Part shown: piece after piece, positions 728-4,923 of the stretch
Layout: every line of letters begins with the position of its first letter
Position numbering within the stretch: position 1 is the stretch's first letter
Notes under the pieces: model-generated
Seen by the model: the letters and a program-made list of their open reading frames with translations, nothing else
Told to the model about the DNA's origin: nothing
Databases searched by the model: none
Translations under genes and position numbers: made by a program
Source: Segetibacter sp.
GTDB taxonomy: Bacteria; Bacteroidota; Bacteroidia; Chitinophagales; Chitinophagaceae
Direction of reading: 5' to 3'
DNA length: 33,393 nucleotides
Assembly: GCA_025963675.1 (NCBI GenBank)
Contig: JAOQAJ010000157.1
Coordinates: forward strand, 1 to 33,393

Positions 728-779
728 CAGCTCCTTTAGTAAAGCAATAGCTTTATGCCAAATTAGTCAATAGGAGCTG
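728..779. repeat. Nested inverted repeat at the 3' end of the small Cys/His gene
   Basis: CAGCTCCT at 728-735 is the reverse complement of AGGAGCTG at 772-779. Inside lies a second hairpin, TAAAGC (740-745) with GCTTTA (750-755). There is no T-run on either side, so it is not a typical intrinsic terminator. It covers the stop codon region of the minus-strand gene and might act as a 3' end structure. Confidence 0.4.
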
Positions 780-984
780 ATGGGGGCTCCTCACTTTCTT
801 CATTACTTGCGTTTTCAATTTGTCTTTCAATAAAACCCTGGATATGATCATGAAATTTATCGCAGCATGTTGTAATGATAATGACGTCTGACTCGATTTT
901 CAATAACGGGTGTTTCTTATGATGGATACACCTGAAGATCTCAGCTTTTTTGCGAATATGTTCTAAATCGATTTTAGCCGCCAT
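763..984 (-). CDS. Small conserved-type Cys/His protein of unknown function
   Basis: A 73-residue protein starting with ATG at 984. It has a basic, helical N-terminus (residues 1-17), then 'CIHHKKHP' near residue 19 and 'TTCCDKFHDHI' near residue 39, and an acidic Pro/Ser tail. The spacing Cys-x-His, beta stretch, Cys-Cys, then Phe-His recalls a family of about 70-residue hypothetical proteins common in Bacteroidota, but I recall this only loosely. The Cys/His pairs could bind a metal or a disulfide partner; no catalytic role is visible. It stands alone, convergent with the gene on its left. An inverted repeat (728-735 with 772-779) overlaps its 3' end. Confidence 0.6.
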   Translation of the reverse strand: MAAKIDLEHIRKKAEIFRCIHHKKHPLLKIESDVIIITTCCDKFHDHIQGFIERQIENASNEESEEPPSAPID

Positions 985-1117: not shown

Positions 1118-1166
1118 AAAAAACAAAAAAGCCCCAACCCAATGCACAAATGAGAAGGGTTGAGGC
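1118..1166 (-). terminator. Rho-independent terminator of the tRNA-like RNA transcript
   Basis: On the minus strand a 10-bp stem (GCCTCAACCC with GGGTTGGGGC, one G-U pair) is followed by a T-run broken by a single G (1118-1130). It begins nine bases after the 3' end of the second tRNA-like RNA, so it most likely ends that transcript. Confidence 0.8.
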
Positions 1167-1174
1167 AAAGAGAG

Positions 1175-1338
1175 CTGTGGAAGAAGGGCTCGAACCTTCA
1201 CGAGGTAGTTAGCTAAAGTGCAATGTTGTGGTGGTCAACCCCAGTCTTTCTTGCGAAAAGGCATTACGCTTCGTTTATCCCATGATCCTCACCCCCGAGA
1301 CAAGAGGGCATGTCTGCCAAAAATTTCATCACTCCACA
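1175..1338 (-). ncRNA. tRNA-like structured RNA, copy B (promoter-distal), very long variable arm
   Basis: Reading the minus strand, 164 nt fold as a class II tRNA: acceptor TGTGGAG with TTCCACA (extendable to 8 bp by C1339 and G at 1175), U8-like 'TG', 3-bp D-stem ATG/CAT with GG in the D-loop, anticodon-type stem CCCTC/GGGGG with loop TTGTCTC (central triplet GTC at 1299-1301), and T-arm GAAGG, TTCGAGC, CCTTC. In place of a normal variable arm there are about 85 nt, closed by GAGG/CCTC, with an inner helix AAGCGTAATG/CATTGCACTT (one mismatch) and a hairpin CTTT/AAAG. CCA is not encoded. Base 37 of the loop is T, unusual for a decoding tRNA. It shares 50 consecutive identical bases with copy A. 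Not tmRNA: no tag reading frame and much too short. I do not recognise a known family. Confidence 0.75.
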
Positions 1339-1432
1339 GTATTAAAAAGAACAACTTATATAGTACCAGTGTACCCTCAGACAATCCAATTGATATTTAC
1401 AGCGGTCTTCAAAGGTATTGGATTTCATTTTG

Positions 1433-1604
1433 CTGTAGGGGGAGGGGTCGAACCTCCACGAGGCAGTTAGATTAAACGCAAAGTTTAGTGGTCAACCCTG
1501 GTCGGCCGAACGCAAGGAACAGTCGGCTCTACGCTTAACTTTATCCCGTGATCCTCACCCCCGAGACAAGAGGGCATGTCTGCCAAAAATTTCATCACCC
1601 CACA
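1433..1604 (-). ncRNA. tRNA-like structured RNA, copy A (promoter-proximal), very long variable arm
   Basis: A 172-nt relative of copy B lying 94 bases upstream of it on the minus strand. Acceptor TGTGGGG pairs with CCCTACA, T-arm is GGAGG, TTCGACC, CCTCC. Compared with copy B, one acceptor pair and one T-stem pair change from A-T to G-C on both sides at once, and G-U at the seventh acceptor pair becomes G-C: compensatory changes that support the fold. The D-arm and anticodon-type arm are identical. The variable region again has GAGG/CCTC at its base, an inner helix TTAAGCG/CGTTTAA and a hairpin GCCGA/TCGGC whose sequence differs completely from copy B while still pairing. The triplet GTC in the loop is at 1565-1567. 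Confidence 0.75.
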
Positions 1605-1642
1605 GTATTTCAAGACATCTGTTTCAATGAACTCTGATAACG

Positions 1643-1675
1643 CAATATTACAGCTAATTCTTCTTTTGTTACAAA
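1643..1675 (-). promoter_or_regulatory. Promoter candidate for the tRNA-like RNAs
   Basis: On the minus strand TTTG (1675-1672) is followed after 21 bases by TAATATTG (1650-1643), one mismatch from the Bacteroidota -7 element TAnnTTTG. Transcription would begin near 1639, about 35 bases before copy A. The identical -7 box occurs in the rluE leader promoter. The spacing is at the long end, so this is a candidate only. Confidence 0.5.
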
Positions 1676-1711
1676 TTGTTCAACTATTATTTTAAATATT
1701 TAGAAAAAATT

Positions 1712-1723
1712 TACATATTTGTA
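1712..1723. promoter_or_regulatory. Possible operator between the tRNA-like RNAs and the Lrp-type gene
   Basis: TACATATTTGTA is a dyad (TACA, four bases, TGTA) 36 bases before the start codon of the Lrp/AsnC gene. Lrp-family proteins often control their own gene, so it is a reasonable autoregulatory site, but such short AT-rich dyads arise easily by chance. Confidence 0.3.
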
Positions 1724-1759
1724 TAATAAATTAGAAAATATAAAATAGAAGAATATAAA

Positions 1760-2230
1760 ATGGCAGCTAAATTAAATCTTGACAAACTCGATTACCAGAT
1801 TATTTATGAAATGATGGAAACTGCAGAAATCTCCTACGCAGATCTTGGTAAAAAATTGTTCGTCTCGGGCGGTACTATACACGTTCGAATAAAGAAACTG
1901 CAGGAAATGGGGGTGGTAAAAGGTACGCGGTTAAATGTTGACCTGAAAGCAATGGGCTACGACGTAATTGCCTTCATTGGTATTTATCTTGAAAAAAGCT
2001 CGCTTTATGATGAAGTTGTAAAAGAACTAAAAAAGATACCTGAAATTGTGCGTTTAAATTATACAACCGGCAATTATAGCATGTTTGCTGAAATTGTGTG
2101 CAAAGATATAGCGCAATTAAGATCGGTGTTGCACGACCAACTTCAAAAAATAAAAGGAATCGAAAGAACGGAAACTTTTATTTCGCTTCAGGAAAGTTTT
2201 AGCAGGAATGTGGTTGTTACGAATAACTGA
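1760..2230 (+). CDS. Lrp/AsnC family transcriptional regulator
   Basis: A 156-residue protein of normal family length (about 150). Residues 5-65 form the AsnC-type winged helix-turn-helix: 'LDKLDYQIIYEMMETAEISYADLGKKL' then the recognition part 'SGGTIHVRIKKLQEMGVV' and the linker 'GTRLNVDLKAMGYDV'. Residues 70-150 form the RAM (ligand-binding, dimer/octamer) domain with 'TGNYSMFAEIVCKD', matching the usual G-x-x-D/Y-F region. It probably senses an amino acid or related metabolite; the target genes cannot be read from the sequence. It is divergent from the tRNA-like RNA transcript and shares the AT-rich spacer with it. Single gene, ATG start. Confidence 0.93.
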   Translation: MAAKLNLDKLDYQIIYEMMETAEISYADLGKKLFVSGGTIHVRIKKLQEMGVVKGTRLNVDLKAMGYDVIAFIGIYLEKSSLYDEVVKELKKIPEIVRLNYTTGNYSMFAEIVCKDIAQLRSVLHDQLQKIKGIERTETFISLQESFSRNVVVTNN

Positions 2231-2540
2231 CCTCATCTTCGTTCCTTCTCTAAGAGAGAAGATATCGCGGGCGGCAGCTTCGTTTTGTTTAATTCAACTA
2301 AAGTTTACCGTTAGCAGTAGTGGCTTTAAGCGTTCCCGGTTTTAGAACATTGAAGAGCTTATAAAACTGTTTGCTATAGTTGCCCTAAAAATCTAAAGTC
2401 GAAGTGAGTGACACAATCGGAGCTGCACAACGAACTGTTGCTGGTCCACAAAAAGAATAAAACGCAGCAAAAACAAATCAACCAGCAAAGGCTCAATTTC
2501 TAATTGCTAGTTGACTACTGCCCTTTCGGCTGCCAGTTCG
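2231..2540. other. Intergenic spacer, no gene seen
   Basis: The 310-base convergent spacer between the Lrp-type gene and the permease holds a short perfect hairpin just after the regulator's stop (CTTCTCT, three bases, AGAGAAG, from about 2246) without a T-run, and one copy of the dispersed repeat at 2402-2419. I see no convincing coding frame. Confidence 0.5.
2402..2419 (+). repeat. Dispersed short repeat, copy 1 (GTGACAC type)
   Basis: AAGTGAGTGACACAATCG matches the right part of the repeat core CAAGTGNGYGACRCAACGA; the usual GTAC start is lost. About 25 bases further on is 'GCTGGTCCACAAAAA', similar to a tail seen after several other copies. Confidence 0.65.
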
Positions 2541-3635
2541 TTATAATTTTCCCCTGACATTCATTGCATCTCTTAACCCGTTTCCGAGCAAATTAAATGC
2601 AAGTACTAAAATCATGATGGCTATCCCGGGGGCGAGCGCGAGCATCGGATTATGAGTAATGATGAAATTATAGTTTTCTTTTATCATTAGTCCCCAGCTT
2701 GGTTGCGGTGGTTGCACGCCCACGCCGAGAAAGCTAAGACCCGCTTCTATCACAATTGCAGACGCAAAATTACTTGCGGCAATTACCATAACGGGCCCAA
2801 GAATATTTGGAAGTATGTGAAATACAATGGTACGGGTATGTGAATAACCAAGTGCTCTTGTGGCTTCGATAAACTCAAGTTCACGTACGGCCAGAACCTG
2901 CCCCCGTACAAGTCTTGCTACGTTTACCCACATCGTTAAACCGACTGCTATAAAAACCTGCCAAAAACCTTTTCCTAATAAAAGCGTTAGTGCGAAAACA
3001 AGCAATAAAGTAGGAATGCTCCAAATGATGTTAATGAACCACATGATCACATCATCTATCCATCCTCTAAAATAACCCGCTAAAGAACCTAGCAATATTC
3101 CCAGTATTACTGAGATGGTTACAGCAATTAGTCCCACACTTAAACTTACTCTGATGCCAACGATCAAGCGGCTGAGAATGTCGCGGCCGAATTTGTCTGT
3201 GCCTAATAAAAATGTTTTAGTAGTGACATAACCTTTTTCCAGTGTTGAGACCGGGTAAGACTGCCGCTCGGAAATGCCTTCATCGATATACTTCTGAACA
3301 ATGACGCTGTCCTTTAGTTTTTGATAAGAGGTTATAGGTAACAGTGCATAGCTGTGCTCCCTGCCACCCAGGATCCACGAAAAAACAGAAACTTTTTCAG
3401 TAGTATTTGCATTCTTCAATTTCAAAAATTGCATCTTAAATCCCGGCTTTTCACCACCAATTTCTACTGTCATCTTGTTTGCATTAGGACTATGGTCGGG
3501 AGCAACCAGATAAGCAAAAACAGCCAAACAGAAAGCCAGGCAAATAACGATCAAACCTGACATAGCCCCCTTATTTTTTCTCAGGCGTTTCCAGAAGGCT
3601 TGTGAATATGAGCCGGATGAAGACATGTGTTGCAA
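2541..3635 (-). CDS. ABC transporter permease, OppC/DppC type
   Basis: A 364-residue inner-membrane permease of a peptide/nickel-type importer. Residues 1-25 are cytoplasmic and basic, the first membrane helix is about 26-46, and the family signature 'LLGTDKFGRDILSR' follows near 143. Four to five further helices occupy the C-terminal part. The ATPase-contact EAA loop is 'EATRALGYSHTRTIVFHILPN' near 258, and 'GLSFLGVGVQPPQPSWG' is the conserved C-terminal signature. The segment between helix 1 and the GTD motif is about 95 residues, longer than in Escherichia coli OppC/DppC (about 300 residues overall). No partner permease, ATPase or binding protein is in the window, so the substrate is unknown. 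Start could be ATG at 3635 or 3626. Confidence 0.93.
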   Translation of the reverse strand: MQHMSSSGSYSQAFWKRLRKNKGAMSGLIVICLAFCLAVFAYLVAPDHSPNANKMTVEIGGEKPGFKMQFLKLKNANTTEKVSVFSWILGGREHSYALLPITSYQKLKDSVIVQKYIDEGISERQSYPVSTLEKGYVTTKTFLLGTDKFGRDILSRLIVGIRVSLSVGLIAVTISVILGILLGSLAGYFRGWIDDVIMWFINIIWSIPTLLLVFALTLLLGKGFWQVFIAVGLTMWVNVARLVRGQVLAVRELEFIEATRALGYSHTRTIVFHILPNILGPVMVIAASNFASAIVIEAGLSFLGVGVQPPQPSWGLMIKENYNFIITHNPMLALAPGIAIMILVLAFNLLGNGLRDAMNVRGKL

Positions 3636-3712
3636 GTTAAATGTTTCAGGTTAAACCTGCGGCCGGTCACGGGTTACATGTGTAATGTTGAGCTCTTACG
3701 TTTCGCTCATAA

Positions 3713-3747
3713 AGCTAGCAGCTTGAAGCTAACAGCTAGCAGCTGTC
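3713..3747. repeat. AGCT-rich low-complexity repeat
   Basis: The spacer between the glycosyltransferase and permease genes contains four to five close copies of an AGCT-centred unit (AAAGCTAGCAGCT, TGAAGCT, AACAGCT, AGCAGCTG). A related stretch lies at about 9467-9498. AGCT is self-complementary, so the units can pair with each other in either strand. Confidence 0.55.
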
Positions 3748-3750
3748 TCC

Positions 3751-4902
3751 TCATCTCACTTCGCGGCCTTTCCACGAGTACTTGCCGAACTTACCGAGCC
3801 AACCGGCAATAATAGTATAAGCTATATGAAAGGGTTGCATAACAGGGAACCACCACAACAACTTTTCTTCTTTGAAAAACTTTGCCACAGGGATCATAAA
3901 TCTACAATCGATAATTGTTTTAGCAGCAAGCATAAGCAGCCAGTACGCAGCAATGTTATTTATCCAAATAGCCGCTATCGGAAGAAGCAGAAATGAAAGA
4001 TTAAAAAAGTACACGAAAATCAACACATACATTATTCTCTTGTCTTCAAATTTATCTGCCTTACTGGCCCATCGAATTCTCTGATTAAAAAATGCTTTCC
4101 AGGTTTCCATCGGTGTTGTTTCTACAATTGATTGTTGCGAAAACAAATAATGAACCCGTGTTTTATAGCGGCTATAAATCTTGTGCATCAAGAGCATGTC
4201 GTCTCCGCTTGCAATGTTGTCTATTCCTTTAAACCCGCCTACCTCATAAAATACTTTTTTGTTGTAAGCGAGGTTGGCACCATTGCACATAGTATGAAAG
4301 CCGGCATTGACAGAGGCTGCAGTTATGCCTTGCAAACTCATAAAATCGAGACATTGAAAAATAGAAACAAATGAACCTGTATTTATAAACTTAACCGGGG
4401 CAGCCACAAAAACAGAATCGTTTTCTTGAATAAAGTTTGACAAGTTGAACAACCAGTCTTTTGTAACAATACAATCTGCATCTGTTGTAACAATCCAGTC
4501 TCCTTTGGCTTCCTGAATTGCCAGTTCCAAAGCTTTCTTTTTATAGCTATTTAATTTTTTTTCTCCAAGCAATTTTTCTATTTGCAGCAGGTGTAAGTTC
4601 GCGTACTCAGCTGCCATGGCAGTAACAATCGCACCTGTATTATCAGTAGAGTAATCATCTGCAACAATCACTTCAAAAAGATTGGAAGGGTAATTTTGAT
4701 TAAGTACAGATTGAAGGCAGTTGCCAATTCTGTCTTCTTCGTTTCGTGCGGGGATGACGACTGTAAAAAAGATCGAAGGTGTTATAGACAAGTCAGCTTT
4801 AAAGGGCTTCACTTTTAAAAACCATCCCCTGTAGCTTTCTATAAGTACAGCGTGCCCAACAAGAAAAAACAAGATGATAACAATTACAATTACAGAGCCC
4901 AT
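3751..4902 (-). CDS. Family 2 glycosyltransferase, membrane-bound
   Basis: About 383 residues from ATG at 4902 (a TTG at 4920 would add six). An N-terminal helix ('VIVIVIILFFLVGHAVL') is followed by a GT-A domain: 'VVIPARNEEDRIGNCLQSV', 'VADDYSTDNT', the metal-binding 'TTDADC', 'GDDMLLMH' as the acceptor-side acidic motif, and 'QRIRWASK', the Q-x-x-R-W motif of processive GT2 enzymes. Two or three C-terminal membrane helices follow, with a short basic tail. This is the layout of inner-membrane enzymes that build polysaccharide or glycolipid; donor and product cannot be told. It sits 21 bases after the alpha/beta hydrolase gene on the same strand, so the two are probably co-transcribed. Confidence 0.9.
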   Translation of the reverse strand: MGSVIVIVIILFFLVGHAVLIESYRGWFLKVKPFKADLSITPSIFFTVVIPARNEEDRIGNCLQSVLNQNYPSNLFEVIVADDYSTDNTGAIVTAMAAEYANLHLLQIEKLLGEKKLNSYKKKALELAIQEAKGDWIVTTDADCIVTKDWLFNLSNFIQENDSVFVAAPVKFINTGSFVSIFQCLDFMSLQGITAASVNAGFHTMCNGANLAYNKKVFYEVGGFKGIDNIASGDDMLLMHKIYSRYKTRVHYLFSQQSIVETTPMETWKAFFNQRIRWASKADKFEDKRIMYVLIFVYFFNLSFLLLPIAAIWINNIAAYWLLMLAAKTIIDCRFMIPVAKFFKEEKLLWWFPVMQPFHIAYTIIAGWLGKFGKYSWKGREVR

Positions 4903-4923
4903 GTCAGGCAAAGAAAACAAGAA

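Follow-up and report, generated by a model that had tools for sequence, protein, structure and literature searches.

The two tandem RNAs described here belong to an unannotated family of tRNA-like RNAs that is widespread in one bacterial class. They lie on the minus strand of a 33,393-nt stretch of Segetibacter sp. (contig JAOQAJ010000157.1, positions 1 to 33,393, hereafter the window), where the initial annotation had noticed them; that observation is confirmed, and the interpretation attached to it is partly supported. Judging from sequence features and gene content, we propose, with a probability of about 0.6, that these RNAs are dedicated non-decoding tRNA-like carriers on which AspRS and GatCAB would synthesize asparagine. 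To our knowledge, a separate RNA family for a tRNA-dependent asparagine pathway would be new, and a search of the open-licence literature found no description of this RNA.

Copy A (1604-1433, minus strand) and copy B (1338-1175, minus strand) cover tRNA positions 1-73 in 172 and 164 nt, respectively, the positions and lengths first assigned to them. They match our covariance model R1 with 184.9 and 174.7 bits, scores that are not independent because both copies are members of the model's own alignment. The acceptor, given previously as 7-8 bp, is present and has 7 bp in the canonical reading (UGUGGGG/CCCUACA in copy A, with U1-A72). Both copies carry U8 and G9, a 3-bp D-stem, a Leu-type D-loop and a T-arm with a 5-bp stem and a UUCGA loop. 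The 5-bp anticodon stem (CCCUC/GGGGG) closes the loop UUGUCUC in both, read from the sequence at 1563..1569 in copy A (GUC at 1567-1565, C38 at 1563) and at 1297..1303 in copy B. An identical run of 50 bases spanning the D and anticodon arms, as originally reported, is seen when the copies are compared. Both 3' ends have G73 and C74 (C74 at 1432 and 1174), and CCA is not encoded.

The variable arm is giant, as had been recognized, and in the canonical reading it measures 100 nt in copy A (1458..1557) and 92 nt in copy B (1200..1291) rather than about 85-95 nt. In copy A it forms nested helices, the covarying helices 4-8, with an internal loop GGATAAA/CTAAC and the hairpin GGGTTGACCAC; the arm of copy B is likewise supported by covariation. 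The pair is framed by a promoter and a terminator that are legible by eye. The putative promoter (1643..1675, minus strand), which we take to be of the Bacteroidota type, consists of TTTG (1675-1672), 21 nt and TAATATTG (1650-1643), and visual inspection shows resembling boxes ahead of many homologues. The putative terminator (1125..1166, minus strand) has a 10-bp stem, GCCTCAACCC/GGGTTGGGGC, with a 16-nt loop, followed by TTTTTT. Both elements had been proposed before; a consensus scanner (sigma-70 consensus, terminator loops of 3-8) listed neither and was uninformative here. Frames antisense to the RNAs were taken as chance, and a 73-aa frame downstream of the terminator (763-984, minus strand) has no Pfam match.

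ARAGORN called no tRNA in the window, and the Rfam 15 covariance models gave 0 matches there, none even at E<=10 on the locus, which rules out a known Rfam family. Together with the covarying structure described below, this bears out the suggestion of an unknown structured RNA family. Single-sequence folding was dropped as evidence, since minimum-energy folding gave z of -0.18 and +0.62 for the two copies and the structures were not cloverleaf. A phage origin was also set aside after one degenerate pattern, a narrow test, gave 0 viral contigs.

Relatives were found in the family, order and class of the window. A BLAST search with copy A hit 136 of the 195 genomes from the window's family. Searching named genomes for an exact pattern of the D and anticodon arms yielded 101 stretches; by MAG titles these are mostly Chitinophagaceae or the genera Segetibacter, Niabella, Flavisolibacter, Sediminibacterium and Ferruginibacter, with some labelled only Bacteroidetes or Chitinophagales, one Sphingobacteriales and one Flavobacterium. 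Model R1 matched 196 of 298 genomes of the order at E<=1e-3 and 171 at E<=1e-13, so that 25 matches are weaker than 1e-13; single genomes of the order have up to five matches, several of them in tandem.

Across the class, R1 matched 96 of 295 genomes at E<=1e-3, many of them weakly over about 85 nt. The two such matches that were read (L206 and L207) were called tRNA-Leu, and we therefore took the weak matches of this length as real tRNAs and rejected them as family members. The strict count is 50 of 295 genomes, requiring at least 100 nt and E<=1e-13, with the 79-nt form of G484 included and G583 (110 nt, damaged loop) excluded; G646 and G553 (weak matches, that of G553 beside asnC) were not counted either. 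ARAGORN, applied to 19 distant loci, called only the 79-nt form (L203), as tRNA-Asp(atc), besides the two real tRNA-Leu.

The structure of the family is supported by covariation. We aligned 64 rows under a structure set by us. Four truncated elements and three rows that contained N or had an incomplete end were dropped beforehand, as was any row more than 93% identical to one retained. Alignment A2 is without the 119-nt form (L119) and the 121-nt form (L015). Among the 64 rows, 96.4% of cells are paired, and 22 of 45 pairs have changes on both sides. Double-changed cells number 250, compared with 64.8 +/- 8.0 in shuffles (0 of 500 shuffles reach 250), and sliding the partner columns by 1-3 lowers the pairing to 44-53%. 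The acceptor, the T-stem and five variable-arm helices covary among the 64 homologues, and the paired differences between the two copies that had been pointed out (pair 7-66, pair 50-64 and a variable-arm hairpin) recur among them. Covariation says little about the D and anticodon arms, since they are nearly invariant in this alignment; in distant members the anticodon stem changes pairwise (CCCGC/GCGGG in L185). Over 114 unique rows the length ranges from 79 to 202 nt, counting one base 5' and two 3', and the variable arm measures about 35-130 nt in every member except the 79-nt form. Variable-arm motifs are conserved among the homologues, and short members mostly retain an inner core like GAYAAA.../...CTAA with the outer hairpins lost.

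The positions that matter for charging and amidation are nearly invariant. All 114 unique sequences have U1-A72, G2-C71, G73 and C74, in contrast to the variable pairs 3-70 and 4-69; position 20a is A throughout, so no member has U20a. G34 (111/114), U35 (113/114), C36 (113/114) and C38 (111/114) are also kept, as are the cloverleaf marks U8 (113/114), TTCGA (112/114) and the D-loop GG (114/114), the D-loop and T-loop signatures having been noticed in the two copies alongside the 3-bp D-stem. The available text of PMC9976931 lists G73, G34, U35, C36 and C38 as bacterial Asp determinants, and describes U1-A72 as permitting the amidation of Asp-tRNA-Asn and G1-C72 with U20a as blocking amidation in tRNA-Asp. 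The Asp-acceptor marks G73, G34, U35, C36 and C38 are thus in place, whereas G10 and G1-C72 are not (position 10 is A in 87, T in 18 and G in 9 of the 114 rows), and every sequence has the marks of a GatCAB substrate, with U1-A72 present and G1-C72 and U20a absent. Read by eye, the tRNA-Asp encoded by G113, a genome that carries the RNA, shows both G1-C72 and U20a; tRNA-Asn was not found in the part of G113 that was read.

The remainder of the molecule resembles tRNA-Leu. When rows stripped of the variable arm are compared with 29 tRNAs of G113, a tRNA-Leu is the nearest for 109 of 120; the comparison is crude, and the set is without several isotypes. This fits the earlier impression of a Leu-like body with an Asp triplet, and the marks on this body join aspartate identity to the pair that GatCAB needs for making asparagine from bound aspartate. 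Among the tRNA genes of G113, C74 is present in 30 of 30 and CCA is encoded in 4 of 30; C74 without CCA is therefore the norm, and the 3' end of the RNA resembles that of a local tRNA gene.

Position 33 is T in 93, C in 13 and G in 8 sequences, and position 37 is T in 107, G in 4, C in 3 and never A, so that the canonical combination of U33 and a purine at 37 is not kept. The doubt already voiced about ordinary decoding is upheld: the loss of U33 in 21 of 114 sequences argues against decoding, and together with position 37 it led us to reject a decoding tRNA. A working tRNA-Asp isoacceptor reading GAY codons would explain the GUC triplet and the cloverleaf, but it is hardly credible, because the variable arm measures about 35-130 nt in all members but one and G113 already has an ordinary tRNA-Asp.

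The RNA pair lies divergent from a regulator gene (1760..2230, plus strand). Its best NCBIfam family is AsnC (PRK11179.1, E 6.4e-47), and its best PDB chain is E. coli AsnC (2cg4); as its 159.2 bits are below the curated equivalog cut-off of 227, we call it AsnC-like, which corrects the previous assignment as Lrp-type while its divergent orientation stands. The link to this regulator is real and conserved across families. The RNA motif matches 202 loci; a regulator match is present at 180 of these and is divergent in 178 (156 of 157 distinct places once repeats are merged), and the regulator starts about 100-300 nt from the RNA. At 21 of 178 distinct places, some of them at contig ends, the stretch examined has no AsnC match, and three genomes (G224, G211 and G034) have their best AsnC on a contig other than that of the RNA. 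No other neighbour cluster exceeds 53 loci. With the threshold at E<=1e-42, which was chosen after the list was seen, AsnC is matched in 50 of 50 RNA-bearing class genomes compared with 19 of 245 others; adding G583 would bring the class count to 51, one of them without AsnC at 1e-42.

Several observations concern this neighbourhood. In G583, an AsnC match with five in-frame stops (L202, G583:C24:4198-5044) lies beside the damaged RNA copy, which looks like joint decay. Convergent to the window's asnC-like gene are an OppC-like peptide permease and a family 2 glycosyltransferase (2541-3635 and 3751-4920, minus strand), and permease-like frames cluster in 53 RNA loci. In two genomes of one genus (L278 in G113, and G014:C2:1309958-1317510), about 6 kb separates the RNA from an AsnRS gene.

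We read 15 of the 19 AsnC-bearing loci of RNA-negative genomes (all but G450, G553, G656 and G677) and found asparagine synthetases, over NCBIfam cut-offs and with PDB relatives, in the slot beside asnC at five of them: asnB in three (L254, L257 and L260) and an AsnRS-like asparagine synthetase A in two (L253 and L256). In E. coli, the gene adjoining asnC is asnA. The remaining 10 slots hold other genes or short non-coding stretches. Three RNA-negative loci of one family (L250, L259 and L261) have in this slot a common short conserved non-coding stretch, AACATAGGTTTATAATTGGTTAG..., followed by a hairpin; it might represent a further small RNA or else a relic. In L255 (G589, a genome without gatB), a short tRNA-resembling sequence with TTCGAGT lies on the divergent strand about 100-200 nt from the asnC start; ARAGORN did not call it.

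To analyze the relation of the RNA to amidation and asparagine synthesis, we scored GatCAB by gatB alone. In a sample of 99 genomes of the class, matches over cut-off were found for gatB in 73, asnA in 4, AsnRS in 97, GlnRS in 36, the AsnB family (TIGR01536) in 93 and true asnB (NF006949) in 12. All 21 RNA-bearing genomes of this sample have gatB, as do a further 39 of 39 (18 of the family, 21 of the class) from a list of 80 chosen by us, giving 60 of 60 overall. Conversely, 24 family genomes were scored RNA-negative (14 by R1, 10 by BLAST only), and 22 of them lack gatB; G031 lacks it as well. One of the two exceptions, G126, in fact carries the RNA, truncated where a contig ends. The other, G076, is a draft in 460 contigs, and the RNA is present in G152 of its genus. 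Joint presence and joint absence of the RNA and gatB contrast within the genera g101, g35 and g11. There are also genomes with gatB and no RNA: 52 of the 78 other sample genomes and 9 of 17 non-family RNA-negative genomes of the chosen list.

Where GlnRS is present, GatCAB should not be needed for Gln-tRNA. Of the 36 GlnRS-bearing sample genomes, 9 have an ordinary gatB, and every one of these carries the RNA. It is missing from the 24 genomes with no gatB over the cut-off (G485 has a partial match) and from the 3 whose gatB lies in a frame of 1112-1120 aa. Fisher's test, with phylogeny ignored, gives p = 2.3e-6, and 2.6e-8 once the three long-frame genomes are set aside. The 63 genomes without GlnRS show no association between the RNA and gatB (12/12 versus 49/51, p = 1). 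One long frame was read in part: in L390 (positions 1304-4000; from G438:C19, whose genome has GlnRS but not the RNA), GatB (15-476) is fused to a bacterial AspRS (518-896) within 899 aa of a frame that continues past the stretch, each part over its cut-off. This fusion suggests an Asp-to-Asn role there and is possibly a covalent asparagine transamidosome; similar fusions are suspected in G482 and G518 from frame length only.

True asnB and gatB are nearly exclusive (gatB in 1 of 12 genomes with true asnB versus 72 of 87 without), and true asnB is found in 0 of 21 RNA-bearing genomes versus 12 of 78 others (p = 0.065, phylogeny ignored). GlnRS is present in 9 of the 21 RNA-bearing sample genomes, and AsnB-family proteins over the TIGR01536 cut-off in 20. 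The genome G428 has the RNA, gatB, glnS and asnS and no asnA or AsnB-family match over cut-off, so GatCAB with the RNA would be its only visible asparagine source, while G031, which is without the RNA, gatB, an AsnC match, asnA or an AsnB-family match, may be an asparagine auxotroph; in both genomes the search for asparagine synthetases covered asnA and the AsnB family. G484, which has the 79-nt form, has asnA.

Together, the co-occurrence with gatB and the asparagine synthetases in the same slot elsewhere point to a role in asparagine synthesis. We then propose a mechanistic model. Transcribed from the divergent promoter, the RNA would be completed with CCA and loaded with aspartate by AspRS, which would recognize the GUC/C38 loop and G73. 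GatCAB would recognize U1-A72 and amidate the bound aspartate to asparagine, which would then be released from the RNA, and AsnC could control the divergent promoter according to asparagine. Both the degeneracy at position 33 and the giant variable arm may serve to exclude the RNA from translation. In its fullest form, which we favour only narrowly, the proposal is that a tRNA-Leu was reshaped into an Asp-accepting, GatCAB-amidated and ribosome-excluded RNA with asparagine as its only job, that beside AsnC it takes the place of an asparagine synthetase gene, and that it is the reason why GlnRS-bearing Bacteroidia retain GatCAB. Some observations speak against a carrier: the AspRS determinant G10 has mostly given way to A or T, and the pair G1-C72, an aid to E. 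coli AspRS, is replaced; the variable arm may get in the way of AspRS or GatCAB; many genomes have gatB without the RNA, and the RNA is not always beside asnC. The AsnB-family proteins of RNA-bearing genomes may also provide another source of asparagine.

The identity marks and the gatB association are also consistent with a charging sensor, an RNA charged by AspRS and amidated by GatCAB whose Asp-bound, Asn-bound or uncharged state signals to AsnC or another regulator, and the adjoining AsnC would suit such a role. We consider it unlikely, because in 5 of 15 loci elsewhere the slot is held by asparagine synthetases rather than sensors, and up to five copies per genome would better suit a bulk carrier. 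The mimicked tRNA-Asp loop, together with U1-A72 and G73, might instead make the RNA a decoy that binds AspRS, GatCAB or both unproductively and throttles Asn-tRNA formation. If the RNA were a decoy, genomes that keep GatCAB should be able to do without it, yet none of the 36 GlnRS-bearing sample genomes has an ordinary gatB and lacks the RNA, and C74, kept as in the tRNA genes of G113, suggests maturation to CCA; a decoy therefore seems quite unlikely.

It is also conceivable that the RNA regulates through base pairing or AsnC binding and that its tRNA likeness is a relic of tRNA-Leu descent. The nearest-tRNA comparison, crude and with isotypes missing, and the conserved variable-arm motifs are in keeping with this, but a relic would hardly have had its Leu acceptor and A73 replaced by Asp and GatCAB marks that are invariant (U1-A72 and G73), nor be absent jointly with gatB, and we regard it as improbable. 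Decoy and regulator roles had been named in the initial annotation and keep some probability; the genome evidence favours asparagine synthesis, which had not been named.

If asparagine synthesis on a carrier is the true function, the family would represent an RNA cofactor devoted to the production of a free amino acid, apart from translation. It would account for GatCAB in some Bacteroidia that have both AsnRS and GlnRS, and predictions of asparagine auxotrophy would change. It would also provide a natural hybrid for research on tRNA identity, with Asp identity for charging and an Asn-type pair for amidation. A GatCAB retention puzzle of a like kind is discussed for Bdellovibrio and others in the available part of PMC4206432.

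With class II tRNAs (tRNA-Leu and tRNA-Ser) the RNA shares the 3-bp D-stem, the Leu-type D-loop and a long variable arm. It differs in its G73, compared with A73 in the tRNA-Leu genes of G113, in the U1-A72/G2-C71 acceptor and the Asp loop, in a variable arm many times longer, and in being apparently non-decoding. Aminoacyl carriers outside translation have a precedent in staphylococci, in which a non-proteinogenic tRNA-Gly serves cell-wall bridges; unlike the RNA described here, that tRNA is of ordinary size and near-normal sequence and belongs to another amino acid and pathway. tmRNA and bacterial Y RNAs are structured non-coding RNAs with tRNA-like domains, whereas the present RNA keeps a full anticodon arm and has no Rfam match.

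The closest known system is tRNA-dependent asparagine synthesis on tRNA-Asn by a non-discriminating AspRS (ND-AspRS) and GatCAB, described for Deinococcus, Thermus and Bdellovibrio in the available part of PMC4206432. As in that pathway, GatCAB is kept beside AsnRS and GlnRS, the RNA has U1-A72 and G73, and asparagine would be made on the RNA (PMC4206432). The RNA described here differs in having a GUC/C38 Asp-type loop on a tRNA-Leu-like body with a giant variable arm, in lacking a fixed U33 and in lying beside an AsnC-like gene, and it would thereby allow the use of a discriminating AspRS.
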